Made by a program: the position numbers and the translations under genes. From Flectonema sp. DT1601 (lineage: Eukaryota; Euglenozoa; Diplonemea; Diplonemida; Diplonemidae): 64,000 nt of DNA. Location of the stretch: the NCBI GenBank assembly GCA_964019425.1, contig OZ025785.1:1201501-1265500 (forward strand). The letters run 5' to 3'. Positions 32,072 through 64,000 of this stretch are shown in pieces (within the stretch, counting starts at the first letter, position 1; every line of letters starts with the position of its first letter). The notes below the pieces were generated by a model, which saw nothing but the letters and a program-made list of their open reading frames with translations, had not been told where the DNA came from and made no database searches.

Positions 32072-32306
32072 TCAGCACTCGCAATACGGTGAAATCGGGA
32101 CAGATGTATCCTTGGAGAGTTCATTCATAATTATTTTGTGTCATTTCTATGCCACAGCATTGCCCTTTTTTATTTACACCGACAAGGTTCGGAGAAGAAA
32201 CTATTCAGATTAAGAGCCGTTATTTATTATTGTTGTCTGTGGTCAACTGTTTAGAGTATTCTTATATCTTTTGATTTAACAGTGAAGTGATTTACTGAAG
32301 GTCAAC

Positions 32307-34535: not shown

Positions 34536-34747
34536 TCAGCACTCGCAATACGGTGAAATCGGGACAGATGTATCCTTGGAGAGTTCATTCATAATTATTT
34601 TGTGTCATTTCTATGCCACAGCATTGCCTTTTTTTATTTACACCGACTGATTAAGAGCCGTTATTTATTATTGTTGTTTGTGGTCAACTGTTTAGAATAT
34701 TCTTATATCTTTTGATTTAACAGTGAAATGATTTACTGAAGGTCAAC

Positions 34748-36985: not shown

Positions 36986-37220
36986 TCAGCACTCGCAATA
37001 CGGTGAAATCGGGACAGATGTATCCTTGGAGAGTTCATTCATAATTATTTTGTGTCATTTCTATGCCACAGCATTGCCCTTTTTTATTTACACCGACAAG
37101 GTTCGGAGAAGAAACTATTCAGATTAAGAGCCGTTATTTATTATTGTTGTCTGTGGTCAACTGTTTAGAGTATTCTTATATCTTTTGATTTAACAGTGAA
37201 ATGATTTACTGAAGGTCAAC

Positions 37221-39458
37221 ATGACGACAGTAAACAATCAATCAACTCGTATTGCTGACGCGTATTCTCCGTTTCGAATCTTTTACTCGGATGATGACAC
37301 GGAAGAAGATCGTCGCAAGAAAAGGATTTCTATATCTACTATAATATTCGGCTATGTGGGGATAGGAACGACTTTCTTCTCTCTATCAATCACTTTCGTA
37401 ACGCTTTCTTTTTACGGAGTAGTAAGTAGTCTCCCATTTATGTTGAAATGGGGAATCACAAAGAAACAAACAGACAATGAGATAGCTGCGGTTCTGTTAC
37501 TCTGGATACCACTCATTTTGCTAGTAGACTTAACACATATGAGTGAAATGATGGATCCCGTTTGGCCGACTGTAGTGTTAGTAGCGGATGTTGCGTTGCT
37601 CTGTAAATTACCCACAAGAGTTGCTTCAACAATCGTATTAGCAGTATCTTTCTATATGATCTTAGTGTGTTTTGAAAGAATCCTGAGATTTGGTCTTTTT
37701 GACATATTATCAACCAAAAAGATGAGATTATTAGACACATGTTTCAACATCACACAAGAAGAAATAGATGCCACCCCGTGTAAAACTGAACCCGTTGATG
37801 CTGCAGCGTTTTGTATTGTTTATTTGGGTGTCTTTATCCTTGACTATTACTGTACGATGGGATTCGCTGTGGGTATGCGAAATGAACAGGCTAAACTAAA
37901 AGCCAGTGTGTCCCTTGCTGAGAATGTTGTCACTTCTCTTGTTGGATTTGATTTGGAAGAAGCGAAAAGTCAACTCTCCAGTGAAGACACTCCGCTAACA
38001 GCAACTCTATCAACTCTGATAGAAAACTTACGACTATATCGTCCATACTTACCAGATGCTTTATTTGAGCTATCTGAGCAGGTAGGATCCCGTGACACGG
38101 TGAAACCTCCTGAAGGACATGCTGCCATAGTCTTCACTGACTTGAAATCTTCAACAGCTATTTGGGAAGCCTCACCCGATGCTATGAAGCGCGCGTTGAA
38201 AACCCACAACAAGATAATTCGCAATGGGATATCTGAATTTGAAGGTTACGAAGTGAAAACGATTGGAGATTCGTTTATGGTGGCGTTTGCCGAATTCGAA
38301 TCCGCCTGCAAATTCGCGATGTCGATCCAAGAAAAGTTCAGCTATGCTTCATGGCCTAATGATTTGGTGCTTCCGGCAGAATTCCAAAGGCATGCATGGA
38401 CAGGTCTTATGATGCGAATTGGTGTTCACTTCGGAGAAGTTGAAAGCGACCTCGACACTCACAATGGTCGAACTGATTATGTTGGGAGAAGTGTTAACAA
38501 AGCTGCTCGTCTTGAAGGTGTTTGTGCACCTGGTGCTGTTGCTATTGACAGTTCTTTACTACACTTTTTAAACATTCATGAGGGATGGTCTACTCGACAG
38601 ATCTCTGAAAAGTTGAAAGGAATTGCAGAGGAACAAACAGACATAACCCTTCTCTTCCCTAATACTCTAGAACATGAAAGTTCAACCTCCTCAGTGTGTT
38701 GTAGTTGGAGGAGTATGAGTAGTGCTGTAAGTGAAACACTTGTTGATAAGTTGACTTTAAAGAGATCCGCCACCACAAGTATTTTCAACCTTGAAATGAG
38801 CAGCGAGGGTATTCACGTTCAAAATCACATAAACACATCGCTAGCGAAATCCATTGGCTGTTTGGAACGTACGGATGGGTCGATCGTATCGGTTCTTGCT
38901 TCTTTCATAACTGTTGGTTGGAATACCAGCCGCCAATCATCTTCACATCTGCAAAGTGGAATCAGATTTGTTTCACTTCTGTTTGGTTTGTTTTCAGAGG
39001 GAGACGTCTTTGTTGGAATCTCTTCGAGTCCCGTTCACTGTGGGTGGATTGGAACAAAAGAACAACGATTTATTACCGTCTTTGGTGACTGTGTTCAGAA
39101 TTGCATGCACCTCTGCCAATCATGTGCTGATATTTCTGCCTTTGCCCTCTGCTCTGACTTTCCCACTGAAGTCAGTGTGTTGCGTCCTATCGATCGCTGG
39201 AGAGGAAGTAATAGTGTCAAAACAGTTTACCAGATAAATGCTTCAAAATTAAAGCAGATAATTGCAACTAAAACACCTGAAGAAGTAGTGGACAACGAAG
39301 ATCAGAGCAGTGAATGGGGTTGGAGTTCAGAATACACGGACGCTTTTACAAAAGGAGACTGGGAGACAATTGAAGAACAGCGAAACCCTTCCGACGATGT
39401 CTTGAAGAGAGTTGCTGAACTTGCTCGGACTGGAAAGAGTCTGCGAATGATATTTTAG
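37221..39458 (+). CDS. six-helix adenylyl cyclase, array copy 4 (745 aa)
   Basis: Catalytic residues complete. The first outer hairpin is IGTTFFSLSITFVTL, more hydrophobic than in the other copies. It reads CTMGFAV after helix 6 (shared with 6 and 7) where the others have CTRGFAV. It has QVGSRD, the VESDLDTHN loop and LLHFLNIHEGW, and keeps SNSVK near the end as copy 1 does, whereas copies 2, 3 and 5-7 have SNGVK. Confidence 0.92.
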   Translation: MTTVNNQSTRIADAYSPFRIFYSDDDTEEDRRKKRISISTIIFGYVGIGTTFFSLSITFVTLSFYGVVSSLPFMLKWGITKKQTDNEIAAVLLLWIPLILLVDLTHMSEMMDPVWPTVVLVADVALLCKLPTRVASTIVLAVSFYMILVCFERILRFGLFDILSTKKMRLLDTCFNITQEEIDATPCKTEPVDAAAFCIVYLGVFILDYYCTMGFAVGMRNEQAKLKASVSLAENVVTSLVGFDLEEAKSQLSSEDTPLTATLSTLIENLRLYRPYLPDALFELSEQVGSRDTVKPPEGHAAIVFTDLKSSTAIWEASPDAMKRALKTHNKIIRNGISEFEGYEVKTIGDSFMVAFAEFESACKFAMSIQEKFSYASWPNDLVLPAEFQRHAWTGLMMRIGVHFGEVESDLDTHNGRTDYVGRSVNKAARLEGVCAPGAVAIDSSLLHFLNIHEGWSTRQISEKLKGIAEEQTDITLLFPNTLEHESSTSSVCCSWRSMSSAVSETLVDKLTLKRSATTSIFNLEMSSEGIHVQNHINTSLAKSIGCLERTDGSIVSVLASFITVGWNTSRQSSSHLQSGIRFVSLLFGLFSEGDVFVGISSSPVHCGWIGTKEQRFITVFGDCVQNCMHLCQSCADISAFALCSDFPTEVSVLRPIDRWRGSNSVKTVYQINASKLKQIIATKTPEEVVDNEDQSSEWGWSSEYTDAFTKGDWETIEEQRNPSDDVLKRVAELARTGKSLRMIF

Positions 39459-39670
39459 TCAGCACTCGCAATACGGTGAAATCGGGACAGATGTATCCTT
39501 GGAGAGTTCATTCATAATTATTTTGTGTCATTTCTATGCCACAGCATTGCCTTTTTTTATTTACACCGACTGATTAAGAGCCGTTATTTATTATTGTTGT
39601 TTGTGGTCAACTGTTTAGAATATTCTTATATCTTTTGATTTAACAGTGAAATGATTTACTGAAGGTCAAC

Positions 39671-41908
39671 ATGACGACAGTAAACAATCAATCAACTCGT
39701 ATTGCTGACGCGTATTCTCCGTTTCGCATCTTTTACTCGGATGATGACACGGAAGAAGATCGTCGCAAGAAAAAAATCTCTACATCTACTGTAATGTTCG
39801 GCTATGTGGGTATGGGGGCGTCTTTGTTATCTGCAACTTCAACCTATGTAATGCTTTATTCTTACTGTGTATTAAGTAGTCTCCCATTTATGTTGAAATG
39901 GGCGATCACGAAAAAACAAAGAGACAATGAGATAGCTGCGGTTCTGCTACTCTGGGTACCACTAATATTACTATTTGACTTGGTACATATGAGTGAGATG
40001 ATGGATCCCATTTGGCCGACTGTAGTGTTGACAGTTGATGTCACATTGCTTTGTAAATTACCCACAAGAGTTACTTCAACAATCGTATTAACTGTATCCT
40101 TCTATATGTCCTTGTTGTGTGCAGAAAGAATCCTGAGATTTGGTCTTTTTGACATATTCCCAGTCGAAAAACTAAAACTTATGAACAAGTGTTTCAACAT
40201 CACACAAGAGGAAATAGATGCCACCCCGTGCAAAATAGAACCAACATATGCGGTCACGTTTTGTATGTTATATTTAGGTGTCTTTATCCTTGACTATTAC
40301 TGTACGAGGGGATTCGCTGTGGGTATGCGAAATGAACAGGCTAAACTAAAAGCCAGTGTGTCCCTTGCTGAGAATGTTGTCACTTCTCTTGTTAGATTTG
40401 ATTTGGAAGAAGCGAAAAGTCAACTCTCCAGTGAAGACACTCCGCTAACAGCAACTCTATCAACTCTGATAGAAAACTTACGACTATATCGTCCATACTT
40501 ACCAGATGCTTTATTTGAGCTTTCTGAGCAGGTGAGATCCCGTGACACGGTGAAACCTCCTGAAGGACATGCTGCCATAGTCTTCACTGACTTGAAATCA
40601 TCAACAGCTATTTGGGAAGCCTCACCTGATGCTATGAAGCGCGCGTTGAAAACCCACAACAAGATAATTCGCAATGGGATATCTGAATTTGAAGGTTACG
40701 AAGTGAAAACGATTGGAGATTCGTTTATGGTGGCGTTTGCCGAATTCGAATCCGCCTGCAAATTCGCGATGTCGATCCAAGAAAAGTTCAGCTATGCTTC
40801 ATGGCCTAATGATTTGGTGCTTCCGGCAGAATTCCAAAGGCATGCATGGACAGGTCTTATGATGCGAATTGGTGTTCACTTCGGAGAAGTTGCAAGCGAC
40901 GTCAGTGCTTGCAGTGGTCGAACTGATTATGTTGGGAGAAGTGTTAACAAAGCTGCTCGTCTTGAAGGTGTTTGTGCACCTGGTGCTGTTGCTATTGACA
41001 GTTCTTTACGTCACCTTTTAAACATTCGTGAGGGATGGTCTACTCGACAGATCTCTGAAAAGTTGAAAGGAATTGCAGAGGAACAAACAGACATAACCCT
41101 TCTCTTCCCTAATACTCTAGAACATGAAAGTTCAACCTCCTCAGTGTGTTGTAGTTGGAGGAGTATGAGTAGTGCTGTAAGTGAAACACTTGTTGATAAG
41201 TTGACCTTAAAGAGATCCGCCACCACAAGTATTTTCAACCTTGAAATGAGCAGCGAGGGTATTCACGTTCAAAATCACATAAACACATCGCTAGCGAAAT
41301 CCATTGGCTGTTTGGAACGTACGGATGGGTCGATCGTATCGGTTCTTGCTTCTTTCATAACTGTTGGTTGGAATACCAGCCGCCAATCATCTTCACATCT
41401 GCAAAGTGGAATCAGATTTGTTTCACTTCTGTTTGGTTTGTTTTCAGAGGGAGACGTCTTTGTTGGAATCTCTTCGAGTCCCGTTCACTGTGGGTGGATT
41501 GGAACAAAAGAACAACGATTTATTACCGTCTTTGGTGACTGTGTTCAGAATTGCATGCACCTCTGCCAATCATGTGCTGATATTTCTGCCTTTGCCCTCT
41601 GCTCTGACTTTCCCACTGAAGTCAGTGTGTTGCGTCCTATCGATCGCTGGAGAGGAAGTAATGGTGTCAAAACAGTTTACCAGATAAATGCTTCAAAATT
41701 AAAGCAGATAATTGCAACTAAAGCACCTGAAGAAGTAGTGGACAACGAAGATCAGAGCAGTGAATGGGGTTGGAGTTCAGAATACACGGACGCTTTTACA
41801 AAGGGAGACTGGGAGACAATTGAAGAACAGCGAAACCCTTCCGACGATGTCTTGAAGAGAGTTGCTGAACTTGCTCGGACTGGAAAGAGTCTGCGAATGA
41901 TATTTTAG
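39671..41908 (+). CDS. six-helix adenylyl cyclase, array copy 5 (745 aa)
   Basis: Catalytic residues complete. The first outer hairpin is MGASLLSATSTYVML, and the loop before the Cys pair is distinctive (DIFPVEKLKLMNKCF). It combines the SLVRFDL/QVRSRD type of copy 3 with the VASDVSACS/LRHLLNIREGW type of copy 2. ATKAPEE near the C-terminus and CAATTCGG just after the stop are shared only with copy 6. Confidence 0.92.
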   Translation: MTTVNNQSTRIADAYSPFRIFYSDDDTEEDRRKKKISTSTVMFGYVGMGASLLSATSTYVMLYSYCVLSSLPFMLKWAITKKQRDNEIAAVLLLWVPLILLFDLVHMSEMMDPIWPTVVLTVDVTLLCKLPTRVTSTIVLTVSFYMSLLCAERILRFGLFDIFPVEKLKLMNKCFNITQEEIDATPCKIEPTYAVTFCMLYLGVFILDYYCTRGFAVGMRNEQAKLKASVSLAENVVTSLVRFDLEEAKSQLSSEDTPLTATLSTLIENLRLYRPYLPDALFELSEQVRSRDTVKPPEGHAAIVFTDLKSSTAIWEASPDAMKRALKTHNKIIRNGISEFEGYEVKTIGDSFMVAFAEFESACKFAMSIQEKFSYASWPNDLVLPAEFQRHAWTGLMMRIGVHFGEVASDVSACSGRTDYVGRSVNKAARLEGVCAPGAVAIDSSLRHLLNIREGWSTRQISEKLKGIAEEQTDITLLFPNTLEHESSTSSVCCSWRSMSSAVSETLVDKLTLKRSATTSIFNLEMSSEGIHVQNHINTSLAKSIGCLERTDGSIVSVLASFITVGWNTSRQSSSHLQSGIRFVSLLFGLFSEGDVFVGISSSPVHCGWIGTKEQRFITVFGDCVQNCMHLCQSCADISAFALCSDFPTEVSVLRPIDRWRGSNGVKTVYQINASKLKQIIATKAPEEVVDNEDQSSEWGWSSEYTDAFTKGDWETIEEQRNPSDDVLKRVAELARTGKSLRMIF

Positions 41909-42120
41909 TCAGCACTCGCAATTCGGTGAAATCGGGACAGATGTATCCTTGGAGAGTTCATTCATAATTATTTTGTGTCATTTCTATGCCACAGCATTGC
42001 CTTTTTTTATTTACACCGACTGATTAAGAGCCGTTATTTATTATTGTTGTTTGTGGTCAACTGTTTAGAATATTCTTATATCTTTTGATTTAACAGTGAA
42101 ATGATTTACTGAAGGTCAAC

Positions 42121-44358
42121 ATGACGACAGTAAACAATCAATCAACTCGTATTGCTGACGCGTATTCTCCGTTTCGAATCTTTTACTCGGAAGATGACAC
42201 GGAAGAAGATCGTCGCAAGAAAAAAATCACTACATCTACTATACTATTTGCCTATTTAGGTATGCTCAGGACTTTCGCGTGGCCATCGCAGTCCTTTGTT
42301 ATGCTTTGTTGTTACGGTGTTGTAACTAGTCTTCCGTTCTTGTTGAAATGGGCGATCACAAAGAAACAAAGAGACAATGAGATAGCTACGTATTTGCTTC
42401 TCTGGGTTCCAATGGTATTACTATTTGACTTGGTTTATATGAGTGAAATGATGGATCCCATTTGGCCGACTGTGGTGTTAATAGCGGATGTTGCGTTGCT
42501 TTGTAGATTACCCACAAGAGTTAATTCAACAATCATAGTATTAGTAACTTTATATATGATCTTGCTGTGTTCAGAAAGAATCCTGAGATTCGGTCTTTAC
42601 GAACTGTTACCAAGCAAAAAAATGAGATTATTAGATACGTGTTTCAACATAACACAAGAAGAAATAGATGCCACCCCGTGTAAAATTAATCCCATTAATG
42701 CGATATCAACTTCTTGGACATATTTGGGTATTTTTATCCTTGACTATTACTGTACGATGGGATTCGCTGTGGGTATGCGAAATGAACAGGCTAAACTAAA
42801 AGCCAGTGTGTCCCTTGCTGAGAATGTTGTCACTTCTCTTGTTGGATTTGATTTGGAAGAAGCGAAAAGTCAACTCTCCAGTGAAGACACTCCGCTAACA
42901 GCAACTCTATCAACTCTGATAGAAAACTTACGACTATATCGTCCATACTTACCAGATGCTTTATTTGAGCTATCTGAGCAGGTAGGATCCCGTGACACGG
43001 TGAAACCTCCTGAAGGACATGCTGCCATAGTCTTCACTGACTTGAAATCTTCAACAGCTATTTGGGAAGCCTCACCCGATGCTATGAAGCGCGCGTTGAA
43101 AACCCACAACAAGATAATTCGCAATGGGATATCTGAATTTGAAGGTTACGAAGTGAAAACGATTGGAGATTCGTTTATGGTGGCGTTTGCCGAATTCGAA
43201 TCCGCCTGCAAATTCGCGATGTCGATCCAAGAAAAGTTCAGCTATGCTTCATGGCCTAATGATTTGGTGCTTCCGGCAGAATTTCAGAGGCATGCATGGA
43301 CAGGTCTTATGATGCGAATTGGTGTTCACTTCGGAGAAGTTGCAAGCGACGTCAGTGCTTGCAGTGGTCGAACTGATTATGTTGGGAGAAGTGTTAACAA
43401 AGCTGCTCGTCTTGAAGGTGTTTGTGCACCTGGTGCTGTTGCTATTGACAGTTCTTTACTACACTTTTTAAGCATTCGTGAGGGATGGTCTACTCGACAG
43501 ATCTCTGAAAAGTTGAAAGGAATTGCAGAGGAACAAACAGACATAACCCTTCTCTTCCCTAATACTCTAGAACATGAAAGTTCAACCTCCTCAGTGTGTT
43601 GTAGTTGGAGGAGTATGAGTAGTGCTGTAAGTGAAACACTTGTTGATAAGTTGACTTTAAAGAGATCCGCCACCACAAGTATTTTCAACCTTGAAATGAG
43701 CAGCGAGGGTATTCACGTTCAAAATCACATAAACACATCGCTAGCGAAATCCATTGGCTGTTTGGAACGTACGGATGGGTCGATCGTATCGGTTCTTGCT
43801 TCTTTCATAACTGTTGGTTGGAATACCAGCCGCCAATCATCTTCACATCTGCAAAGTGGAATCAGATTTGTTTCACTTCTATTTGGTTTGTTTTCAGAGG
43901 GAGACGTCTTTGTTGGAATCTCTTCGAGTCCCGTTCACTGTGGGTGGATTGGAACAAAAGAACAACGATTTATTACCGTCTTTGGTGACTGTGTTCAGAA
44001 TTGCATGCACCTCTGCCAATCATGTGCTGATATTTCTGCCTTTGCCCTCTGCTCTGACTTTCCCACTGAAGTCAGTGTGTTGCGTCCTATCGATCGCTGG
44101 AGAGGAAGTAATGGTGTCAAAACAGTTTACCAGATAAATGCTTCAAAATTAAAGCAGATAATTGCAACTAAAGCACCTGAAGAAGTAGTGGACAACGAAG
44201 ATCAGAGCAGTGAATGGGGTTGGAGTTCAGAATACACGGACGCTTTTACAAAGGGAGACTGGGAGACAATTGAAGAACAGCGAAACCCTTCCGACGATGT
44301 CTTGAAGAGAGTTGCTGAACTTGCTCGGACTGGAAAGAGTCTGCGAATGATATTTTAG
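42121..44358 (+). CDS. six-helix adenylyl cyclase, array copy 6 (745 aa)
   Basis: Catalytic residues complete. The membrane cassette is the most diverged type, with MLRTFAWPSQSFVML in the first hairpin, Leu for Met in PFLLKW, and INAISTSWTYLG before helix 6; it is shared only with copy 7. The cyclase loop is VASDVSACS, with LLHFLSIREGW as in copy 1. The 3' end (KAPEE and the base change after the stop) matches copy 5, so this gene looks like a join of two parental types. Confidence 0.92.
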   Translation: MTTVNNQSTRIADAYSPFRIFYSEDDTEEDRRKKKITTSTILFAYLGMLRTFAWPSQSFVMLCCYGVVTSLPFLLKWAITKKQRDNEIATYLLLWVPMVLLFDLVYMSEMMDPIWPTVVLIADVALLCRLPTRVNSTIIVLVTLYMILLCSERILRFGLYELLPSKKMRLLDTCFNITQEEIDATPCKINPINAISTSWTYLGIFILDYYCTMGFAVGMRNEQAKLKASVSLAENVVTSLVGFDLEEAKSQLSSEDTPLTATLSTLIENLRLYRPYLPDALFELSEQVGSRDTVKPPEGHAAIVFTDLKSSTAIWEASPDAMKRALKTHNKIIRNGISEFEGYEVKTIGDSFMVAFAEFESACKFAMSIQEKFSYASWPNDLVLPAEFQRHAWTGLMMRIGVHFGEVASDVSACSGRTDYVGRSVNKAARLEGVCAPGAVAIDSSLLHFLSIREGWSTRQISEKLKGIAEEQTDITLLFPNTLEHESSTSSVCCSWRSMSSAVSETLVDKLTLKRSATTSIFNLEMSSEGIHVQNHINTSLAKSIGCLERTDGSIVSVLASFITVGWNTSRQSSSHLQSGIRFVSLLFGLFSEGDVFVGISSSPVHCGWIGTKEQRFITVFGDCVQNCMHLCQSCADISAFALCSDFPTEVSVLRPIDRWRGSNGVKTVYQINASKLKQIIATKAPEEVVDNEDQSSEWGWSSEYTDAFTKGDWETIEEQRNPSDDVLKRVAELARTGKSLRMIF

Positions 44359-44570
44359 TCAGCACTCGCAATTCGGTGAAATCGGGACAGATGTATCCTT
44401 GGAGAGTTCATTCATAATTATTTTGTGTCATTTCTATGCCACAGCATTGCCTTTTTTTATTTACACCGACTGATTAAGAGCCGTTATTTATTATTGTTGT
44501 TTGTGGTCAACTGTTTAGAATATTCTTATATCTTTTGATTTAACAGTGAAATGATTTACTGAAGGTCAAC

Positions 44571-46808
44571 ATGACGACAGTAAACAATCAATCAACTCGT
44601 ATTGCTGACGCGTATTCTCCGTTTCGAATCTTTTACTCGGAAGATGACACGGAAGAAGATCGTCGCAAGAAAAAAATCACTACATCTACTATACTATTTG
44701 CCTATTTAGGTATGCTCAGGACTTTCGCGTGGCCATCGCAGTCCTTTGTTATGCTTTGTTGTTACGGTGTTGTAACTAGTCTTCCGTTCTTGTTGAAATG
44801 GGCGATCACAAAGAAACAAAGAGACAATGAGATAGCTACGTATTTGCTTCTCTGGGTTCCAATGGTATTACTATTTGACTTGGTTTATATGAGTGAAATG
44901 ATGGATCCCATTTGGCCGACTGTGGTGTTAATAGCGGATGTTGCGTTGCTTTGTAGATTACCCACAAGAGTTAATTCAACAATCATAGTATTAGTAACTT
45001 TATATATGATCTTGCTGTGTTCAGAAAGAATCCTGAGATTCGGTCTTTACGAACTGTTACCAAGCAAAAAAATGAGATTATTAGATACGTGTTTCAACAT
45101 AACACAAGAAGAAATAGATGCCACCCCGTGTAAAATTAATCCCATTAATGCGATATCAACTTCTTGGACATATTTGGGTATTTTTATCCTTGACTATTAC
45201 TGTACGATGGGATTCGCTGTGGGTATGCGAAATGAACAGGCTAAACTAAAAGCCAGTGTGTCCCTTGCTGAGAATGTTGTCACTTCTCTTGTTGGATTTG
45301 ATTTGGAAGAAGCGAAAAGTCAACTCTCCAGTGAAGACACTCCGCTAACAGCAACTCTATCAACTCTGATAGAAAACTTACGACTATATCGTCCATACTT
45401 ACCAGATGCTTTATTTGAGCTATCTGAGCAGGTAGGATCCCGTGACACGGTGAAACCTCCTGAAGGACATGCTGCCATAGTCTTCACTGACTTGAAATCT
45501 TCAACAGCTATTTGGGAAGCCTCACCCGATGCTATGAAGCGCGCGTTGAAAACCCACAACAAGATAATTCGCAATGGGATATCTGAATTTGAAGGTTACG
45601 AAGTGAAAACGATTGGAGATTCGTTTATGGTGGCGTTTGCCGAATTCGAATCCGCCTGCAAATTCGCGATGTCGATCCAAGAAAAGTTCAGCTATGCTTC
45701 ATGGCCTAATGATTTGGTGCTTCCGGCAGAATTTCAGAGGCATGCATGGACAGGTCTTATGATGCGAATTGGTGTTCACTTCGGAGAAGTTGCAAGCGAC
45801 GTCAGTGCTTGCAGTGGTCGAACTGATTATGTTGGGAGAAGTGTTAACAAAGCTGCTCGTCTTGAAGGTGTTTGTGCACCTGGTGCTGTTGCTATTGACA
45901 GTTCTTTACTACACTTTTTAAGCATTCGTGAGGGATGGTCTACTCGACAGATCTCTGAAAAGTTGAAAGGAATTGCAGAGGAACAAACAGACATAACCCT
46001 TCTCTTCCCTAATACTCTAGAACATGAAAGTTCAACCTCCTCAGTGTGTTGTAGTTGGAGGAGTATGAGTAGTGCTGTAAGTGAAACACTTGTTGATAAG
46101 TTGACTTTAAAGAGATCCGCCACCACAAGTATTTTCAACCTTGAAATGAGCAGCGAGGGTATTCACGTTCAAAATCACATAAACACATCGCTAGCGAAAT
46201 CCATTGGCTGTTTGGAACGTACGGATGGGTCGATCGTATCGGTTCTTGCTTCTTTCATAACTGTTGGTTGGAATACCAGCCGCCAATCATCTTCACATCT
46301 GCAAAGTGGAATCAGATTTGTTTCACTTCTATTTGGTTTGTTTTCAGAGGGAGACGTCTTTGTTGGAATCTCTTCGAGTCCCGTTCACTGTGGGTGGATT
46401 GGAACAAAAGAACAACGATTTATTACCGTCTTTGGTGACTGTGTTCAGAATTGCATGCACCTCTGCCAATCATGTGCTGATATTTCTGCCTTTGCCCTCT
46501 GCTCTGACTTTCCCACTGAAGTCAGTGTGTTGCGTCCTATCGATCGCTGGAGAGGAAGTAATGGTGTCAAAACAGTTTACCAGATAAATGCTTCAAAATT
46601 AAAGCAGATAATTGCAACTAAAACACCTGAAGAAGTAGTGGACAACGAAGATCAGAGCAGTGAATGGGGTTGGAGTTCAGAATACACGGACGCTTTTACA
46701 AAGGGAGACTGGGAGACAATTGAAGAACAGCGAAACCCTTCCGACGATGTCTTGAAGAGAGTTGCTGAACTTGCTCGGACTGGAAAGAGTCTGCGAATGA
46801 TATTTTAG
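44571..46808 (+). CDS. six-helix adenylyl cyclase, array copy 7 (745 aa)
   Basis: The protein is identical to copy 6 except Thr for Ala in KTPEE, including the whole membrane cassette. This marks the most recent duplication of a 2,450-bp unit. The downstream sequence reads CAATACGG, like copies 1-4, rather than CAATTCGG as in 5 and 6. Similarity to the other spacers ends about 80 bp after the stop, so this is the array edge. Confidence 0.92.
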   Translation: MTTVNNQSTRIADAYSPFRIFYSEDDTEEDRRKKKITTSTILFAYLGMLRTFAWPSQSFVMLCCYGVVTSLPFLLKWAITKKQRDNEIATYLLLWVPMVLLFDLVYMSEMMDPIWPTVVLIADVALLCRLPTRVNSTIIVLVTLYMILLCSERILRFGLYELLPSKKMRLLDTCFNITQEEIDATPCKINPINAISTSWTYLGIFILDYYCTMGFAVGMRNEQAKLKASVSLAENVVTSLVGFDLEEAKSQLSSEDTPLTATLSTLIENLRLYRPYLPDALFELSEQVGSRDTVKPPEGHAAIVFTDLKSSTAIWEASPDAMKRALKTHNKIIRNGISEFEGYEVKTIGDSFMVAFAEFESACKFAMSIQEKFSYASWPNDLVLPAEFQRHAWTGLMMRIGVHFGEVASDVSACSGRTDYVGRSVNKAARLEGVCAPGAVAIDSSLLHFLSIREGWSTRQISEKLKGIAEEQTDITLLFPNTLEHESSTSSVCCSWRSMSSAVSETLVDKLTLKRSATTSIFNLEMSSEGIHVQNHINTSLAKSIGCLERTDGSIVSVLASFITVGWNTSRQSSSHLQSGIRFVSLLFGLFSEGDVFVGISSSPVHCGWIGTKEQRFITVFGDCVQNCMHLCQSCADISAFALCSDFPTEVSVLRPIDRWRGSNGVKTVYQINASKLKQIIATKTPEEVVDNEDQSSEWGWSSEYTDAFTKGDWETIEEQRNPSDDVLKRVAELARTGKSLRMIF

Positions 46809-56802: not shown

Positions 56803-57085
56803 CAGAACAAATTTTTTCTTTTGTTCTTCATTAAAACTACACTGAGACACGGTCTTCCGCAATACATCGCACGAACAGAACATATCCTTTCTTGTTCTCG
56901 TTTAAACACCGCTTTAAGACAGCGAAAAGAACATATCCTTTTTTTTGTTCTTGTTTAAACTCTGCTTTGATACACGGTCTTCCGCTAGTCAGCGCGCGAG
57001 AAGAACATATCTTTTCTTGTTCTCGTTTAAACTTTGCTTTTAAGACCTGCAAACAGAGCATATCTTTTTTTTGTTCCTGTTAAAA
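56803..57085 (+). repeat. five imperfect tandem repeats in the LINE leader
   Basis: A motif close to GAACATATC-T(n)-TTGTTCTCGTTTAAAC recurs near 56803, 56878, 56929, 57001 and 57053, with alternating spacing of about 52 and 72-75 bases. Copies are interrupted by GACACGGTCTTCCGC-type linkers. Tandem repeats in the 5' UTR are common promoter modules of non-LTR elements; that role here is inference. Confidence 0.7.
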
Positions 57086-57253
57086 CTCTTTTTTAAGACA
57101 AAGCGTTACGAATCAGCCTGCGGGAGGAGAAGGAAGAACTCTCTCACTAGCTTTGTTTGGTGCCCGTGGTGGTGACTACCATTCTGCGTCGGAACTGTAC
57201 GGGGGTGACCGCATAGACAGAAGAGTTCGGAAAGCGGAGGATACGCGAGCCAG

Positions 57254-57284
<31 letters not shown>

Positions 57285-57395
57285 ACTCCACACACACGTA
57301 CAGGGCTAACAAGGAGAAGAGCAGGTAAGTCGATTGTCTTTTTTCGGGTTCCATACACAAATCATCCACAGCGAAGAGAACGGAAAAGGAAGAGT

Positions 57396-57441
<46 letters not shown>

Positions 57442-57444
57442 AGA

Positions 57445-60400
57445 ATGGAGAAAACAATGTTACTGTGTGGGTACGTGCTGCTGTGGGCACTACTAAGTGG
57501 AACGAGGGCGCAACAGACGTCCGGAGTGGGTAAGCAGAGGTTAGCCCCAGTGCCAGGCGGATGGCACACCCCTCTTTTCACAACGCTGGACAAAGGCCCA
57601 CTGTTTTCATCGCGCATCAGCCGACGCGTAACACGCCCGATCCCCCCGCACCCATTTATAACCCCCAACAGCTCAAACAGCCCCAACAATACGGCAAGCG
57701 GACGCGCTTTCCAACATGGACGAGAGGGGGTGTGGGTCCCGCGGAGGGGAACGGAAACGGCCGGGAACCGGGTGAGGCGAGACCACCCAAAGCCACCTCC
57801 AGACAAGGGAGGAAGGGAGCTCCTGAAGAGGGCGTCCCCGAAAGTGGCGTCCAAGGCGGCAAGGCGGCTGGAAAGGAGGAGGAGGAAGCTGCTGAAGGAA
57901 CGGCAGGAGAGGTGGGAGCGGTGGGCGGGAGAGTTGGAGAAGTTCCACGCCAGGCGAGAGAGGTTCCGCGCGGAGACAGAGAGGCCAAGGAAGAACAAGG
58001 CGGAGACACCGAGGAAGCGACGGGCAGGGCCCGAAAGGGACTGGACAAAGCCAGGAGGGCACAAGGCGGAGCCCAGACCATGGTATGCGAGGCCGTCAGA
58101 CCTGGCAGGAGGAGGGCAAAGCAAGGAGAGGACGAAGTGCCCGGTGGTGGGGTGCAGCGTCTGGGTGAGGGGTGACCTAGAGTACCACTTCAAACAACAC
58201 CTGAAGGGAGTGGTACCGGGGGAGGTAACGGCCCAGATGGCATCCGACAGACTCGGAAAGCAGATCTGCAAGGCCTGCGGGGAGCTGAGTACCGGATTGG
58301 TGCACCAGACAGTGAGGTGTCGGGAGATGTTGGACCTCAAGGGACGGCTGGGGGTAGCGACGGGACCCACGCCGGAACTGGCAAGCCTGAAGTGCGAGGG
58401 AGCAAAAGTATTCCGGGTGATTGGGGATGGGAATTGCCTGTTCAGGAGTGTGTGCCAACTCCTAGAGACGCCAGAGGGGTGGAAGGGCAGACATGGAGAG
58501 CTCCGCAGGAGAACGGCAGGATACCTGACCAAGAACAGGGAAAGGTTCGAGGTCTTCTTCCAGGACGCGGACGCATTCGGAGTATATGCGAGGGCGTTGG
58601 AAGAGGATGGATGCTGGGGCGATGCATTGGCCCTACAGGTCATGGCAGAGGACCTACAGTGCCGCTTCGTCGTCGTGGTGAGGACGGAAACGCTGGTGGT
58701 GGAAGGGCCATCGGACCCGAAGCGGACGCTGGTCTTGACCCTGCAAAACGGGTGCCACTACGACCCAGTGGAGGCATCCGAGGACTGCGTCGCGCGGCTG
58801 CTACAGAGCGCCCGGAGGTTGGAGTTAGTGTCGCCAGGCCCGCTGTCGCAAGCAGCAGGAGGCGAGCCGGCAGTGCTGCAGACAGCCTCCCGACAGGCCC
58901 AGCTGCACGAGTGCCCCCAAGCGGAGTGCCCGAAACACAAGGGAGGCTTCGAGGAGTGGGCGGAGCTCCTAAGACACGTGGACGAGCACGCATTCAGTGG
59001 CAACCCGCTGACGCATGGACAGTTGGCGAGGCTAGGCCTCCGGGAATGTCCGGTGTGCTGTGGGATCATCGGGCAGGACCAGCCGATGCATCCGGGGTGC
59101 AGTGAGAAACTGCAGAAGGTCCAACTGGGGGACGTGTACACGGCGTTCCGGAAGCGGGTGCTGGAGAGCCAGAGCTTCCCCTCTTTGGAGGAAATAGCCA
59201 GCAGGAGGAGGCCGATAGCGAAGAAGCTGCCGGTGCCCCTGTTGCACCATTTGGGGCGAGCACTCAAGCTGGCGCTTGATCTAGTCGTGGAGCGGAACGA
59301 TGAGTGGGCATGGAAGCTGCTCTTGATGCTCCCGACTTGTACACTGCGGAGGATACGGAGGGGGGGTAGGAGGTTGTCGACCAGCAATCTGACAGGGGCT
59401 GTCGACGACCTGCAGGCATGGATTCGGGGGGATTTTGAGGGACTGTGGAAAGCGGCGGCCCCCCGCAAGGCGACGGGAAGGCCAGCAGTGAAAGAGGCGG
59501 GGCAAAAAGGAAGGAACGACAGGGCCACGTCGCTAGCGAGGGAGGGTTGCCTGTCACAGGCGATCTCGGCCCTAGACGCGCCGCCGCCAGCAGAACGAAC
59601 CGAGAAGGTGCTGGAGCAGATGCGCACCCTACACCCGAGGGCGAGCGGACCCCCATCGGCCACGGCAGGGCAGGAGGTGCAGATAGCAGAGGTGGAGCTG
59701 CTAGCATGCCTACGCTCCTTCCACAGGGGGTCGAGTGGAGGGCCTTCGGGCCTCGCGCCGCAACACCTGAAGGACGTGGTGGAGCGGGGTGAGGTGCCGG
59801 GGCTGGTAGCCTCGATCACGGAGGTGGTGAGGATTCTGGCGAACGGGAGGGCGCCGCGGGAAGTAGCGCCGCTGCTGGCGGGGGCGAACCTGACGGCGCT
59901 GGAGAAAGAAGGGAAGCCGGGGGAGCACCGGCCAGTCGCGGTGGGGGAAACATGGAGGCGGCTGGTGGCGAAGATCCTGTGCGGGGCATACAGGTCCCAG
60001 GCGAGGAGCTCGTTGCTAGAAGTGAGACAACTGGGAGTAGCGGTGTCGGGGGGAGTGGAGGCGGCGGTGCACACCCTGCATGAGTTCCGCGCGGAGCACG
60101 CGCTCTCGTCACAGAAAGTGTTCGTGAAGATAGACTTCTCGAACGCCTTCAACTGCGTGAAGAGGGGGGCGTTCCTGGATTCGACGAGGGATACCCTGCT
60201 GGAGAGCTGGGTCAGCTGGTGTTACGGAGCGCCGACGTGGTTGCTGTTTGGGGACGAGAGGCTGAGCTCGGAGGAGGGCGCTCAGCAGGGGGATCCGTTG
60301 GGTCCCTTGCTGTTCTCGCTGGCAATCAAGCCGGCGCTGCAGAAGGTGTTGGAGGCGAAGCCGGAGTTGGCGTGCTTCTACCTGGACGATGGGCTGGTGG

Positions 60401-63400
60401 CGGGCACCCTGGAACAGGTAGACAAGGCCCTCCAAATCCTGCAGAAGGAGACGGCGGAGCTGGGGCTGACGCTGAGGCCGGACAAGTGCCAGACGCACGT
60501 GCTCGACTCAGCCCAGAACACCCTGCCCTTGGGGTGGGGGTTGGAAGGGATGAGACCCCCACTGTACAACGGGGACTTCCTGGGGGCACCGTTCGGGACG
60601 GAGGAACACTGCCAGGAGTTCGTCGACAGGAAGGTGGCGCAGCTGGAGAAGAAAGCGGAGCTGCTAGCAGACCTGCAGGACCGGCAGGTGGCCATGGTGC
60701 TCCTAAGGCAATGCATGGGCTTCTGCAAGGTGACCCACCTGATGCGATGCTGCACGCATGGGAAAATGGACACCTCGATGCGGAAGGTGGACGAGCTGAT
60801 GAGGTCCACGGCGAGCCGAGTGTTGGGCCTGACACTGGAGGGGCCAAAGTGGATGCAAGCACAACTGCCGACCCGGATGGGGGGATTGGGGCTGCGGTCA
60901 TGTGCAGAGCACAGGGGAGCAGCACTATTGGGATCCCTGGAATTAGTCCAAGGGGTGAGCAAGTCACTGTGGGAGGGGTTCAAGGGGGTGCTGATGCCAG
61001 CACTGAAGAAGGGGTTGAACCTCGCCCTCCCGGAGGAGCTAAGGATAGAAGAAGACGGGCCGGGGCCGAACCCCCAGAGGCTGTCCTCGGCGAAACTGGA
61101 CCAGGTCAAGAGAGACTGCCTGCTGGCGGGGGCGAATGACCCGCGCGATAAAGGGAGGCTGCTCTCCCTGCGCATGGATAAGGCGAGCGCATGGCTGCAA
61201 CAAGCAGATGAAGAGTGCGCGATGGACCCAGAGACGTTCAGGATCGCATGTGGGATGCGATTGGGCGCAGCGCTGTTCGCGGAAGGGGCAGTATGCAGGA
61301 TATGCTCAGGCCCACAGGATAGGCAGGGATACCATGCCTCAATCTGTATCAAAAACGGCCACGTGCACCAGCGACACGAGAGGGTGAAGGAGGAGTTCAT
61401 CTCCATCTTTAAGCAGGCGGGATTGCCGCTGCTGAGAGAACCCAGCCACCTACTGGGACCCAACAAGCAGAGACCGGGGGACTGGTACTGCCAAGAGGGG
61501 CTGAGGGAGGGGAGAGGCAGAGCCTTCGACATCACAGTGGTAAACCCGGGGAAAATTAAATTGTATAAAACCCCGGGGCAAGCCGCGAGAGAAGCAGAGT
61601 CCCTGAAAGGGAACAAGTACGCGGAGCAGTGCACGAAACACGGGATTAATTTCTCGACAATTGCGCTGGAAGCGTACGGAGGGATGGGACGGGAAGCAGT
61701 GGGAACCCTGAAGAAGTTGGTGCAGATCTGCGCAACGAACTCGACGGTGCCACACCGGGAGATCGCGGGGGAGATGGCGAGGAGGATCTCGACATCGGTG
61801 GTAGTGGCGACGGCGGAAGCACTGAGAGCGAGGGAGGCGTCGGTGGCGATGGACTCAGTGAACCCATTGCCAAGGACGAAACCGCCGCCCGAGATGACGG
61901 AGAAGCCGACATCACAAGAGAGAGAACCAAGACCGAGAGCGGAAACGGAAGAGATCCAGCAGCCGGAAGTAATGCGACAGTCGGCAGGACCGCCCCCGAC
62001 GATGAGAGGTTTGCCGAACATCGGGAACTCCTGCTACCTCAACGCGTCCGTACAGTGCCTGCTGAAGGGCACGGCACTGACACAAGTGCTGACGGGGAAG
62101 GAGGAAGTGGGGATGTCGGGCCTCCTGAGTGGAGTGGTCAAAGGGAGTGGGGAGTGCCTGGAGAAGCTGTCCGAGATGTTCGACCCGCTACAAGACAGGC
62201 GGCAGGGGGAGGTAGTAGGAACCCTGACGTCCATAGTAGACGCCCTGTTGGAGGAGAAGAAAGAGGTGTGCGAACCGTTGTTCTCGGCAGTACAGCTGAA
62301 ACAGCTGGTCTGCACGGGATGTGCGGACGCCTCCGGATCGACGGATGAGTTGACGCTGATCCCACTGTGTGGCCGTACACCACAAGTGAGGCTTCAGCCG
62401 ACGAAGGAGAGAGTCGAGCGGTCCTGCGAGAAGCTGTGCGGCAGCAATGAGGCCACGCTGGAAGAGAGTTTCGCCTCGCTCCCAAGCTCCTTGATCTTCC
62501 AGAGAGACAAGCAGGACACGCAAGGGTCCTTGGGATGGGAAGAGCGCTTCCAGGTGCAGGTCGGGGAGAGGGTGATGACGTACCAGCAAACGGGAGCGAT
62601 CGCACACCTCGGGAGTGACAACGCGGGGCATTACGTGTCATACACGTGGGACGGAGTAGGCTGGCAGAAGCAAGACGACAAGGCAATAAGCCAAGTGTCG
62701 ACAGAGGAGATCCACGGGACGAAACCAGTAGTAGTGGTCTACTCGAGGGTGGAGGGATCGACCCAAGAGGACGTCGGGGTGCCGGTGAGATGGATTCCGG
62801 TGGCGAACAAGGACCGGATGGAGGTACGCGAGGCACCGCCGTCGGAGGAGGACACCGCGGGGTACACGTCCAGGGAAGAGGCGGAGTGTGTCCTCCGGAC
62901 GCGAGTAGTAGGGGGGCAGACGCAGCGCAAGCTGCTCTTACTGGTATCGAGCGTCTGGAACGCGGAGATGGAGAAGCTGGGGGCGGCAGCATGCCTGATA
63001 CACATGGGAACGCTCGACAGGAGGTTCACGTGGTCGGGCTGCCTACCGACATGGGACGAAGCGACTGCGGAGTACGTGGCAGCGCTGCTAGGGCTCAACG
63101 CGATCAGGGAGAGATCGCAACTGCTGGGGGGTGAGACACAGATCGAGGTGGTCACACCGCAGCAGGGGTGGGGAGTCGAGCAGCAGGAGGCGCTGAAGTT
63201 GGTAGCGCTCCCGTCGGTGATAGAACACCAGGTGACGGAAAGCTCACGAGGGGTGGAGAACCTGGCCCTCTGGGAAGCGGAATCGGCGGCATGGGACGAG
63301 CCGGTGGAACTCTCGGAGGACGGGCTCGACTACTTGGTGATCGAGCTGGAGATGAATCTGGGGCTGTCCCAATTGAGGGGAAAGGCGGTGGAACCGGATG

Positions 63401-64000
63401 AATCCCAGTCGCTCCCAGGAGGGTCGACGGCATCAGGCGAAGACAGACCACGAGCCGAAGCGCCAGCCCAGGTGGAAGCGCAGACGACGGAAGCACAAGG
63501 AGCGGAAGCAGTAGGGCTGAGAGACGAGCCAGCACAGGAAGTGGGACAACCCGAGGAAAAAGAGCCCCCATCCCCCGACCCCCCGTCGAAGGAGGAGAAG
63601 CTGTATGCGGTGGCGGTGGGATGGAAACCGGGAGTGTATGCATCGTGGGAGGAGGCGAAGGCACAGACGGAAGGGTGCCCGAATGCGACACACCAGAGTT
63701 TCTCCTCCAGGAAGGAGGCGGACAGGTTCGTAGAGAGGTGGCAGCCGGAGACCAGGGAACCGACCCGGGCCACGGAGGGTGTCAGCCCACGTAAGTGGTA
63801 CGCAGTGGCGAGGGGCAGGGCGGTAGGCCTGTTCCAATGCTGGAACGAGGCGAACTCGATGGTGTCAGGCTACGCGGCGGCGAGACACAAGAGTTTCGCA
63901 AGCAAGGGGGAGGCGGAGGGATACCTCCGAACCCACCTGCTGGGGGAGGTGGTTGGCGAAGTAGGGACGAGGTACACCTTGGTGTACGCATGCGAGGAAG
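57445..64000 (+). CDS. LINE polyprotein: zinc fingers, OTU, RT, RLE, USP, two RNase H1-type HBDs (3' partial)
   Basis: Open for 2,185 codons with no stop before the window edge. In order: a hydrophobic leader (1-23); a basic, Arg-rich region; zinc fingers (CPVVGC...H-x3-H near 233, CKACG near 275); an OTU protease (about 320-445) with D328, C331 and H438; another C2H2-like finger (about 490-520) and CPVCC (near 539); reverse transcriptase (about 760-1100) with KIDFSNAFN, AQQGDPLGP and YLDDG (D981 and D982); a CCHC knuckle (CRICSG, near 1285) and restriction-like endonuclease (RPGDW...AFDITVVNP, about 1340-1370); a USP fold (about 1522-1765) with NIGNSCYLN (C1530), CTGC, GHYVSY (H1729) and a DD pair; then two hybrid-binding domains (nt 63598-63740 and 63793-63960). 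All modules are in one frame, which I followed codon by codon. The two proteases could process the polyprotein or remove ubiquitin from it or the host. Confidence 0.88.
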   Translation, partial: MEKTMLLCGYVLLWALLSGTRAQQTSGVGKQRLAPVPGGWHTPLFTTLDKGPLFSSRISRRVTRPIPPHPFITPNSSNSPNNTASGRAFQHGREGVWVPRRGTETAGNRVRRDHPKPPPDKGGRELLKRASPKVASKAARRLERRRRKLLKERQERWERWAGELEKFHARRERFRAETERPRKNKAETPRKRRAGPERDWTKPGGHKAEPRPWYARPSDLAGGGQSKERTKCPVVGCSVWVRGDLEYHFKQHLKGVVPGEVTAQMASDRLGKQICKACGELSTGLVHQTVRCREMLDLKGRLGVATGPTPELASLKCEGAKVFRVIGDGNCLFRSVCQLLETPEGWKGRHGELRRRTAGYLTKNRERFEVFFQDADAFGVYARALEEDGCWGDALALQVMAEDLQCRFVVVVRTETLVVEGPSDPKRTLVLTLQNGCHYDPVEASEDCVARLLQSARRLELVSPGPLSQAAGGEPAVLQTASRQAQLHECPQAECPKHKGGFEEWAELLRHVDEHAFSGNPLTHGQLARLGLRECPVCCGIIGQDQPMHPGCSEKLQKVQLGDVYTAFRKRVLESQSFPSLEEIASRRRPIAKKLPVPLLHHLGRALKLALDLVVERNDEWAWKLLLMLPTCTLRRIRRGGRRLSTSNLTGAVDDLQAWIRGDFEGLWKAAAPRKATGRPAVKEAGQKGRNDRATSLAREGCLSQAISALDAPPPAERTEKVLEQMRTLHPRASGPPSATAGQEVQIAEVELLACLRSFHRGSSGGPSGLAPQHLKDVVERGEVPGLVASITEVVRILANGRAPREVAPLLAGANLTALEKEGKPGEHRPVAVGETWRRLVAKILCGAYRSQARSSLLEVRQLGVAVSGGVEAAVHTLHEFRAEHALSSQKVFVKIDFSNAFNCVKRGAFLDSTRDTLLESWVSWCYGAPTWLLFGDERLSSEEGAQQGDPLGPLLFSLAIKPALQKVLEAKPELACFYLDDGLVAGTLEQVDKALQILQKETAELGLTLRPDKCQTHVLDSAQNTLPLGWGLEGMRPPLYNGDFLGAPFGTEEHCQEFVDRKVAQLEKKAELLADLQDRQVAMVLLRQCMGFCKVTHLMRCCTHGKMDTSMRKVDELMRSTASRVLGLTLEGPKWMQAQLPTRMGGLGLRSCAEHRGAALLGSLELVQGVSKSLWEGFKGVLMPALKKGLNLALPEELRIEEDGPGPNPQRLSSAKLDQVKRDCLLAGANDPRDKGRLLSLRMDKASAWLQQADEECAMDPETFRIACGMRLGAALFAEGAVCRICSGPQDRQGYHASICIKNGHVHQRHERVKEEFISIFKQAGLPLLREPSHLLGPNKQRPGDWYCQEGLREGRGRAFDITVVNPGKIKLYKTPGQAAREAESLKGNKYAEQCTKHGINFSTIALEAYGGMGREAVGTLKKLVQICATNSTVPHREIAGEMARRISTSVVVATAEALRAREASVAMDSVNPLPRTKPPPEMTEKPTSQEREPRPRAETEEIQQPEVMRQSAGPPPTMRGLPNIGNSCYLNASVQCLLKGTALTQVLTGKEEVGMSGLLSGVVKGSGECLEKLSEMFDPLQDRRQGEVVGTLTSIVDALLEEKKEVCEPLFSAVQLKQLVCTGCADASGSTDELTLIPLCGRTPQVRLQPTKERVERSCEKLCGSNEATLEESFASLPSSLIFQRDKQDTQGSLGWEERFQVQVGERVMTYQQTGAIAHLGSDNAGHYVSYTWDGVGWQKQDDKAISQVSTEEIHGTKPVVVVYSRVEGSTQEDVGVPVRWIPVANKDRMEVREAPPSEEDTAGYTSREEAECVLRTRVVGGQTQRKLLLLVSSVWNAEMEKLGAAACLIHMGTLDRRFTWSGCLPTWDEATAEYVAALLGLNAIRERSQLLGGETQIEVVTPQQGWGVEQQEALKLVALPSVIEHQVTESSRGVENLALWEAESAAWDEPVELSEDGLDYLVIELEMNLGLSQLRGKAVEPDESQSLPGGSTASGEDRPRAEAPAQVEAQTTEAQGAEAVGLRDEPAQEVGQPEEKEPPSPDPPSKEEKLYAVAVGWKPGVYASWEEAKAQTEGCPNATHQSFSSRKEADRFVERWQPETREPTRATEGVSPRKWYAVARGRAVGLFQCWNEANSMVSGYAAARHKSFASKGEAEGYLRTHLLGEVVGEVGTRYTLVYACEE

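Follow-up and report, generated by a model that had tools for sequence, protein, structure and literature searches.

Can one long interspersed nuclear element (LINE) carry two unrelated proteases of the ubiquitin system, and what would they do for it? The question is raised by a stretch of 64,000 nucleotides from Flectonema sp. DT1601 (C6:1201501-1265500, C6 being contig OZ025785.1), referred to here in its whole length as the window. An open frame at its 3′ end encodes a LINE polyprotein in which, according to a preliminary description made from the sequence of the window, an OTU protease precedes the reverse transcriptase (RT) and a ubiquitin-specific protease (USP) follows the restriction-like endonuclease (RLE), all in one unbroken reading frame. 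Reading of the frame and Pfam profiles confirm this arrangement, and the catalytic residues named there (D328, C331 and H438 for OTU; C1530 and H1729 for USP) are exact when the first ATG is counted as residue 1. An RLE-class LINE with two deubiquitinase-type folds is borne out by profiles, catalytic residues, at least 29 loci, five families and purifying selection. A LINE with a protease of this type was already known; what is new here is a LINE with two unrelated ones.

A single frame with two protease domains

The frame runs without interruption from window position 57334 past the window end to a stop at L009:9467, giving a length of 2,877 residues counted from 57334, with 2,222 residues inside the window and 655 outside. 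The order of domains is zinc finger, OTU, zinc finger, RT, CCHC/RLE, USP, two Cauli_VI domains and a long tail, followed by a 3′ poly(A) (Table 1). The additional 655 residues, the two RNase-H1 hybrid-binding (Cauli_VI) domains after the USP and the 28 other in-frame places described below go beyond the preliminary description. Pfam scores given for the window protein refer to its 2,222 in-window residues; in these, the Cauli_VI family matches two stretches (96 bits together, cut-off 21). The 654 residues read past the window show no Pfam family at E 0.1. To the eye, the stretches beside these two domains resemble RNase H, a resemblance that is unsupported by Pfam and by the Protein Data Bank (PDB) and is not claimed.

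Profile searches in Pfam and in the PDB support both protease folds, with OTUD3 and USP15 as their respective matches. The OTU domain scores 48.6 bits (cut-off 23.3), its sequence alone matches OTUD3 (4bou, E 3.9e-10), and a profile of the aligned families matches OTUD3 with E 4e-14, OTU structures of viral RNA polymerases being among the matches. An AlphaFold2 model, calculated from a shallow alignment of 6 rows and not compared with known folds, has a predicted local distance difference test (pLDDT) of 75.1 and a predicted template modelling score (pTM) of 0.77. The Cys, the His and a WGD motif are invariant in six aligned sequences from the five families (named A, C, D, E and F, with the window element in A and A represented twice). 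The domain thus predicted displays the features of its class, namely a DGxC box, a downstream His and an OTU profile match.

The USP domain scores 44.9 bits with the UCH family (cut-off 23.9) and matches USP15 with E 5.2e-7 when its sequence is used alone and with E 1.1e-24 when a profile of seven LINE USP sequences is used; its AlphaFold2 model (shallow alignment of 7 rows, again not compared with known folds) has a pLDDT of 73.1 and a pTM of 0.75. The zinc-ribbon of the preliminary description is present as two Cys pairs starting at residues 1623 and 1661 (window 62311 and 62425), and the Asp of the catalytic set is residue 1745. The Asn, Cys, His and Asp and both Cys pairs are invariant in seven sequences from the five families (A and E twice). 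The Cys box, His box, zinc-ribbon Cys pairs and USP profile that characterize peptidase C19 are all found in this predicted domain. Families E and F contain an additional USP-like stretch between the RLE and the main USP, detected by BLAST (residues 1662-1936 in E and 2076-2346 in F), in which the Cys and one His are kept and the GHY box is lost (RHA/KHA). In E this stretch scores 19.5 bits with UCH_1 (cut-off 22.2) and 14.1 with UCH (cut-off 23.9); in F it has no Pfam match. Two hybrid-binding domains follow the USP in families A, C, D and E.

The core of the element is that of an RLE-class LINE

The RT scores 62.7 bits with RVT_1 (cut-off 29.6), and its best PDB match is the R2 retrotransposon protein (9nl2, E 2.1e-6). 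Downstream of the RT lies an endonuclease motif of the (R/K)P(G/A)D...D type, by which the domain is recognized on sequence as an RLE, and the CCHC/RLE residues C, C, H, C, RH, E, D and D are invariant in eight aligned sequences. On the basis of its R2-related RT, CCHC and RLE, 3′ poly(A) and varying flanks, the window element is classed as an RLE-class LINE with a poly(A) tail.

An apurinic-like endonuclease (APE; Exo_endo_phos) has no Pfam match in family A, in the whole of E or in C, D and F as fetched, separate upstream frames being outside the scan; the same scan detects APE in the LINEs L001 and L008. Catalytic RNase H likewise has no PF00075 match in the LINE frames scanned, and a PDB search with profile A3 yields no RNase H; the trace of RNase H in these frames is its N-terminal, hybrid-binding domain only. 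The Pfam list of the window protein to E 1, which includes OTU, holds no family of Ulp1 type. Other kinds of LINE-like RT frames occur in the genome at L001-L008 (150 of 759 RT candidates were scored).

The two-protease element is repeated in five families

The genome scanned comprises 89.5 Mb in 92 contigs, in which profile scans gave at least 134 UCH rows and at least 67 OTU rows, many family-A copies giving two UCH rows each; 28 of the UCH matches score above 130 bits and look like host genes. When OTU and UCH rows are paired by the same contig, the same strand and equal open-frame length, both proteases lie in the same frame at 29 places or more (A 16, C 3, D 2, E 6 and F 2), on many contigs. 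Besides the window, this amounts to 28 further places with OTU and USP in one frame, 19 of which were read on fetched DNA; for the other nine, the common frame is inferred from equal frame lengths and the family of unfetched places is likewise inferred. The element of the window is therefore not the isolated case that would have told against its preliminary description. Score and profile range assign 41 of the 67 OTU rows to LINEs of this kind (19 to A, 12 to C and D, 8 to E and 2 to F), and 12 of the 41 are out of frame with a USP, being split, truncated, at a contig end or with no USP nearby.

On fetched DNA, OTU, RT, RLE and USP share a single unbroken frame at 16 of 21 family-A loci; the incomplete ones are L013, split by an insertion, L016 and L027, with the 5′ part only, and L029 and L030, which have no OTU. 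One locus each was read for C, D, E and F, and OTU, RT and UCH share a frame in every one. Among the 19 family-A 3′ ends seen, 13 carry an unbroken A run of at least 31; the flanks differ, except those of L011 and L028. Most family-A loci are 97-100% identical to the window element in each domain (the RT part of L030 is 89% identical), and from these near-identical intact copies the family appears to have been recently active. At L015:98-190, a family-A copy stands head to tail after the poly(A) of another copy.

The order OTU-RT-RLE-USP is common to all five families. Compared with A, the RT is 63% identical in C and D and 36% in E and F. The OTU is 45-47% identical in C and D and 40% in E (in part), F being missed by the search used, and the USP is 29-30% identical in C and D and 21-26% in E and F. 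An RT-RLE tree of 13 rows, with support of 72/54 where a sister relation of the ACD and EF lineages is concerned, is compatible with one or with two gains of the USP. Between its RLE and its USP, family D has about 12 units of a Pro-rich repeat, each about 57 residues long and including an AGG motif (L032:4637-7918).

Both proteases are under purifying selection

Comparison of families C and D gives ratios of nonsynonymous to synonymous substitution rates (dN/dS) of 0.14 for OTU, 0.07 for RT, 0.045 for RLE and 0.32 for USP, with 0.22 for the hybrid-binding domains, 0.13 for the stretch that follows them and 0.48 and 0.55 for two linkers. Between E and F, synonymous sites are near or at saturation. 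Among 16 family-A copies, the corresponding ratios of polymorphism (pN/pS) are 0.18 for OTU, 0.09 for RT, 0.02 for RLE, 0.28 for USP and 0.07 for the hybrid-binding domains, compared with 0.21 for the OTU-RT stretch and 0.63 (three changes), 0.40 and 0.35 for stretches around the USP and hybrid-binding domains. OTU and USP are both constrained, the USP less than the RT, and the C-D comparison is the stronger of the two. The element is real, replicated, old and selected.

Relatives in other protein records

Searches of protein records reach only sequences with short exact words in common with the query; within this reach, the window protein gave 16 matches when the 7,999 best candidates from 5.8 billion proteins were scored, its own record and 15 others that are 25-32% identical over the aligned parts. 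These 15 relatives (record sources ena, jgi or ncbi) appear to come from other organisms. Seven of them, P0003-P0008 and P0010 (source ena), score 552-580 bits with the RT-RLE core profile. P0004-P0008, which are much alike and are taken as one family, have OTU-like stretches both before the RT (about 33 bits with the LINE OTU profile) and after the RLE (about 32 bits; P0004 32.0), and P0003 has one before the RT only. P0010 has three weak OTU-like stretches (8.3, 6.3 and 3.7 bits, 23.9 together), with 3.7-6.3 bits in the C-terminal slot. P0014 reaches 8.5 bits with the same profile, and the seven remaining relatives score at most 1.3 bits or are not listed. Pfam OTU scores of P0004 (17.8), P0006 (20.1), P0010 (14.4) and P0014 (13.2) lie below the cut-off of 23.3. 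P0003-P0008 and P0010 belong to the same RT-RLE core group and have an OTU-like stretch before the RT, as in the window element, whereas their C-terminal slot, in all but P0003, is OTU-like and not USP.

None of the 15 relatives shows a USP, whether by the LINE USP profile (best score 1.6 bits), by Pfam (9 of 15) or by precomputed domains (15 of 15). A stretch after the RLE of P0016 that looked USP-like by eye was dropped (only RVT_1 in Pfam at E 10, no PDB match, 1.6 bits with the USP profile). The USP region of family D, used as a query, has no match among 7,533 candidate proteins. The frame of family E has a single match, P0020, a predicted protein of 3,746 residues with the Pfam set UCH, RVT_1, OTU and Cauli_VI; it is 100% identical to family E and probably derives from the same genome. 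A plan with two protease slots around RT-RLE is therefore wider than one genome, and the USP is seen in this genome only.

Comparison with known systems

According to the available passages of PMC4640811, RLE LINEs form five clades besides Dualen, which encodes both APE and RLE, and Dualen/RandI is among the clades with RNase H. The same passages report an N-terminal Ulp1-like protease in nematode NeSL and in one Utopia (Utopia-1_TSP). NeSL and Utopia-1_TSP thereby resemble the window element as RLE LINEs with an N-terminal cysteine protease of ubiquitin/SUMO type; in the window element, OTU takes the place of Ulp1, and the opposite end carries another protease, of unrelated type. Since no APE was found, the element is not filed under Dualen/RandI. 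What it shares with Dualen/RandI, from Chlamydomonas and others, is that a single LINE encodes an RT, an RLE and a cysteine protease, the Dualen protease being presumably of OTU type, and it differs by having no APE or catalytic RNase H match and by its USP as second protease. The passages on Dualen available from PMC8226300 and PMC12747079 make no mention of a protease.

Outside LINEs, the available part of PMC2836005 lists Ginger1 elements with OTU or Ulp1, some Helitrons with OTU and one T. vaginalis protein that combines transposase_11 with Peptidase C19, so that the association of C19 with a mobile-element enzyme is not new. These elements are like the present one in carrying OTU, Ulp1 or C19 domains; they differ as DNA transposons with one such protease per family in that table and no RT named. 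The nairovirus L protein has an N-terminal viral OTU that removes ubiquitin and ISG15 (PMC7518590, in the part available); with its OTU N-terminal of a polymerase, it offers an analogy of layout only, being an RNA virus polymerase and a different kind of element. In the literature searched, with Repbase and most subscription papers outside that search, no LINE was found to carry a USP, with or without an OTU, or two such folds together. Mobile elements of several kinds carry single proteases of ubiquitin/SUMO type, for which no purpose is established.

In the genome scanned here, a long frame that is helicase-like by eye, at L036:2-2998 and L035:2-1264 (C12:16301-20563), ends in two OTU-like stretches, one seen by eye and one scoring 24.1 bits, over the Pfam cut-off; it is probably a Helitron. 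Further weak OTU matches, in frames whose length reaches about 2,800 residues, form another group; the one copy read is helicase-like by eye, with a C-terminal OTU, and the group was set aside as not of this LINE kind.

Possible roles of the two proteases

Two unrelated deubiquitinase folds in five families, at 29 or more places, are hard to regard as passengers. Retention of both domains in several old families suggests that the element fights or exploits the ubiquitin system of its host; such an element would link the mobility of LINEs to ubiquitin control in the host. The preliminary description proposed that the proteases may protect the polyprotein or its particle from ubiquitin-dependent decay, process the element's own protein or counter a host defence. 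In the reading that we favour, and to which we give an even chance of being right, OTU and USP would be active on ubiquitin and would remove it in cis, both from the protein-RNA particle of the element itself and from proteins present at its insertion intermediate. Proteasomal removal would thereby be delayed long enough for target-primed reverse transcription, and the hybrid-binding domains 3′ of the USP would keep the USP near the RNA:DNA hybrid. The proteins of LINEs act for the most part on the RNA that encodes them. Cis action is favoured because of this habit, because two domains that bind RNA:DNA hybrids follow the USP in A, C, D and E and because family A shows no excess of self-cleavage motifs; the absence of an [LI]xGG excess in this family likewise favours substrates in trans over self-cleavage.

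Several observations weigh against a deubiquitinating role in cis. Tethering by the hybrid-binding domains is something we infer, and no sequence feature points to a substrate. The C-terminal slot of a relative is OTU-like, and the trait under selection may be any cysteine protease activity. The USP evolves faster than OTU, RT and RLE, and its pN/pS in family A (11 synonymous and 10 other changes) is barely below that of neighbouring stretches. In family F, the OTU motif reads NG where the others read DG, and the whole-frame scan puts the domain at 21.2 bits (cut-off 23.3), though the genome scan gives 27.7. Finally, L011 and L028 share one 3′ flank, with short A runs, so that not all copies are independent insertions.

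The main rival, which we regard as doubtful, is that the proteases act at the target site on host chromatin or repair factors, such as ubiquitinated histones or clamp proteins, opening the site or steering its repair. A DNA-repair role in transposition is indeed proposed for the OTU and Ulp1 domains of transposons by the authors of PMC2836005, in the part available. The hybrid-binding domains would also place the USP at the insertion site, but the Pfam lists of the scanned frames include no chromatin-reader domain. Processing of the polyprotein into functional units, as performed by the papain-like proteases of nidoviruses, appears unlikely, although it would suit the very long frames (2,877 residues in A, 3,746 in P0020 of family E) and the position of proteases on both sides of the RT-RLE core. 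Family D has more [LI]xGG sites than expected (10 versus 2.7, a number reached in 1 of 500 shuffles), as does E (7 versus 3.0; 17 of 500) and, weakly, C (4 versus 1.9; 65 of 500), but there is no excess in A (3 versus 3.0) or F (3 versus 3.6); moreover, 8 of the 10 sites of D fall within the Pro-rich repeat, whose unit reads alternately IAGG or TAGG, and no ubiquitin-like domain occurs in the Pfam lists of scanned frames.

That one or both domains are inactive, ubiquitin-binding relics is quite improbable: the extra USP-like copy of E and F, without a GHY box and below cut-off or unscored, and the altered OTU motif of F are what relics would look like, but the catalytic Cys and His of the main OTU and USP are kept in five families under purifying selection. 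An artefact, whether chance fusion with a host USP gene, assembly error or misread profile match, keeps next to no probability and is refuted by the copies, with 29 same-frame places on many contigs, in five families and with differing DNA flanks, and with UCH, RVT_1, OTU and Cauli_VI present in the P0020 record. 

A broader and tentative proposal, which we hold less likely than not, is that of a clade of RLE LINEs in which RT-RLE stands between two ubiquitin-protease slots. The upstream slot would hold OTU; the downstream slot would have been filled in one lineage by OTU and in another, two families of which have a further USP-like copy, by USP. In the lineage to which the window element belongs, the USP joined to the hybrid-binding pair would act on the intermediate of target-primed reverse transcription, and removal of ubiquitin would be part of insertion.

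Features of the element and its surroundings

Table 1. Positions of the features of the LINE in the window
Feature	Position	Strand	Basis and details
5′ untranslated part with internal A tract 57254-57281	57155..57444, start provisional	+	comparison of family-A loci
LINE polyprotein open frame	57445..64000	+	first ATG; open from 57310; ends C6:1267467
Hydrophobic, signal-peptide-like N-terminus	57445..57513	+	judged by eye
First C2H2-type zinc-finger-like motif, upstream of OTU	58138..58200	+	motif by eye, unscored
OTU cysteine protease	58387..58779	+	PF02338; D 58426-58428, C 58435-58437, H 58756-58758
Second C2H2-type zinc-finger-like motif, OTU-RT interval	58912..58989	+	motif by eye, unscored
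Reverse transcriptase region	59401..60933	+	PF00078; Pfam core 59905-60501, YLDD within 60376-60396
CCHC and restriction-like endonuclease	61294..61773, end approximate	+	RPGD...D motif 61471-61542
USP (ubiquitin carboxyl-terminal hydrolase)	62005..62742	+	PF00443; C 62032-62034, H 62629-62631, D 62677-62679
Two RNase-H1 hybrid-binding (Cauli_VI) domains	63598..63927; starts near 63598 and 63793	+	Pfam PF01693

The element stands out from its surroundings by a GC content of 61-64% in its three 2-kb bins, compared with 35-47% in the other bins of the window. In most family-A copies an internal A tract lies immediately 5′ of the frame. The sequence upstream of this tract is shared by 15 of the 21 family-A loci. 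Of the others, L018 has a different sequence adjoining the A tract, L015 lies behind the tail of another copy, and L011, L014, L029 and L030 differ. On its 3′ side, the window element has a 3′ untranslated part followed by an A run of 75. The polyprotein starts of families A, C and D (the latter two seen in the N-termini of L031 and L032) are hydrophobic and signal-peptide-like by eye, which is odd for a LINE.

Directly 3′ of the window element lies a 5′-truncated type-E element (L010:2555-8035; C6:1268055-1273535), which holds a USP-like stretch, a USP and two hybrid-binding domains. Elsewhere in the window, positions 29834-46808 are occupied by seven consecutive open reading frames of 742-745 residues, the first of which, the only one scanned, has a guanylate/adenylate cyclase domain. 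All 15 complete open reading frames of at least 250 residues before position 57000 lie on the + strand, a layout reminiscent of kinetoplastids or their kin.

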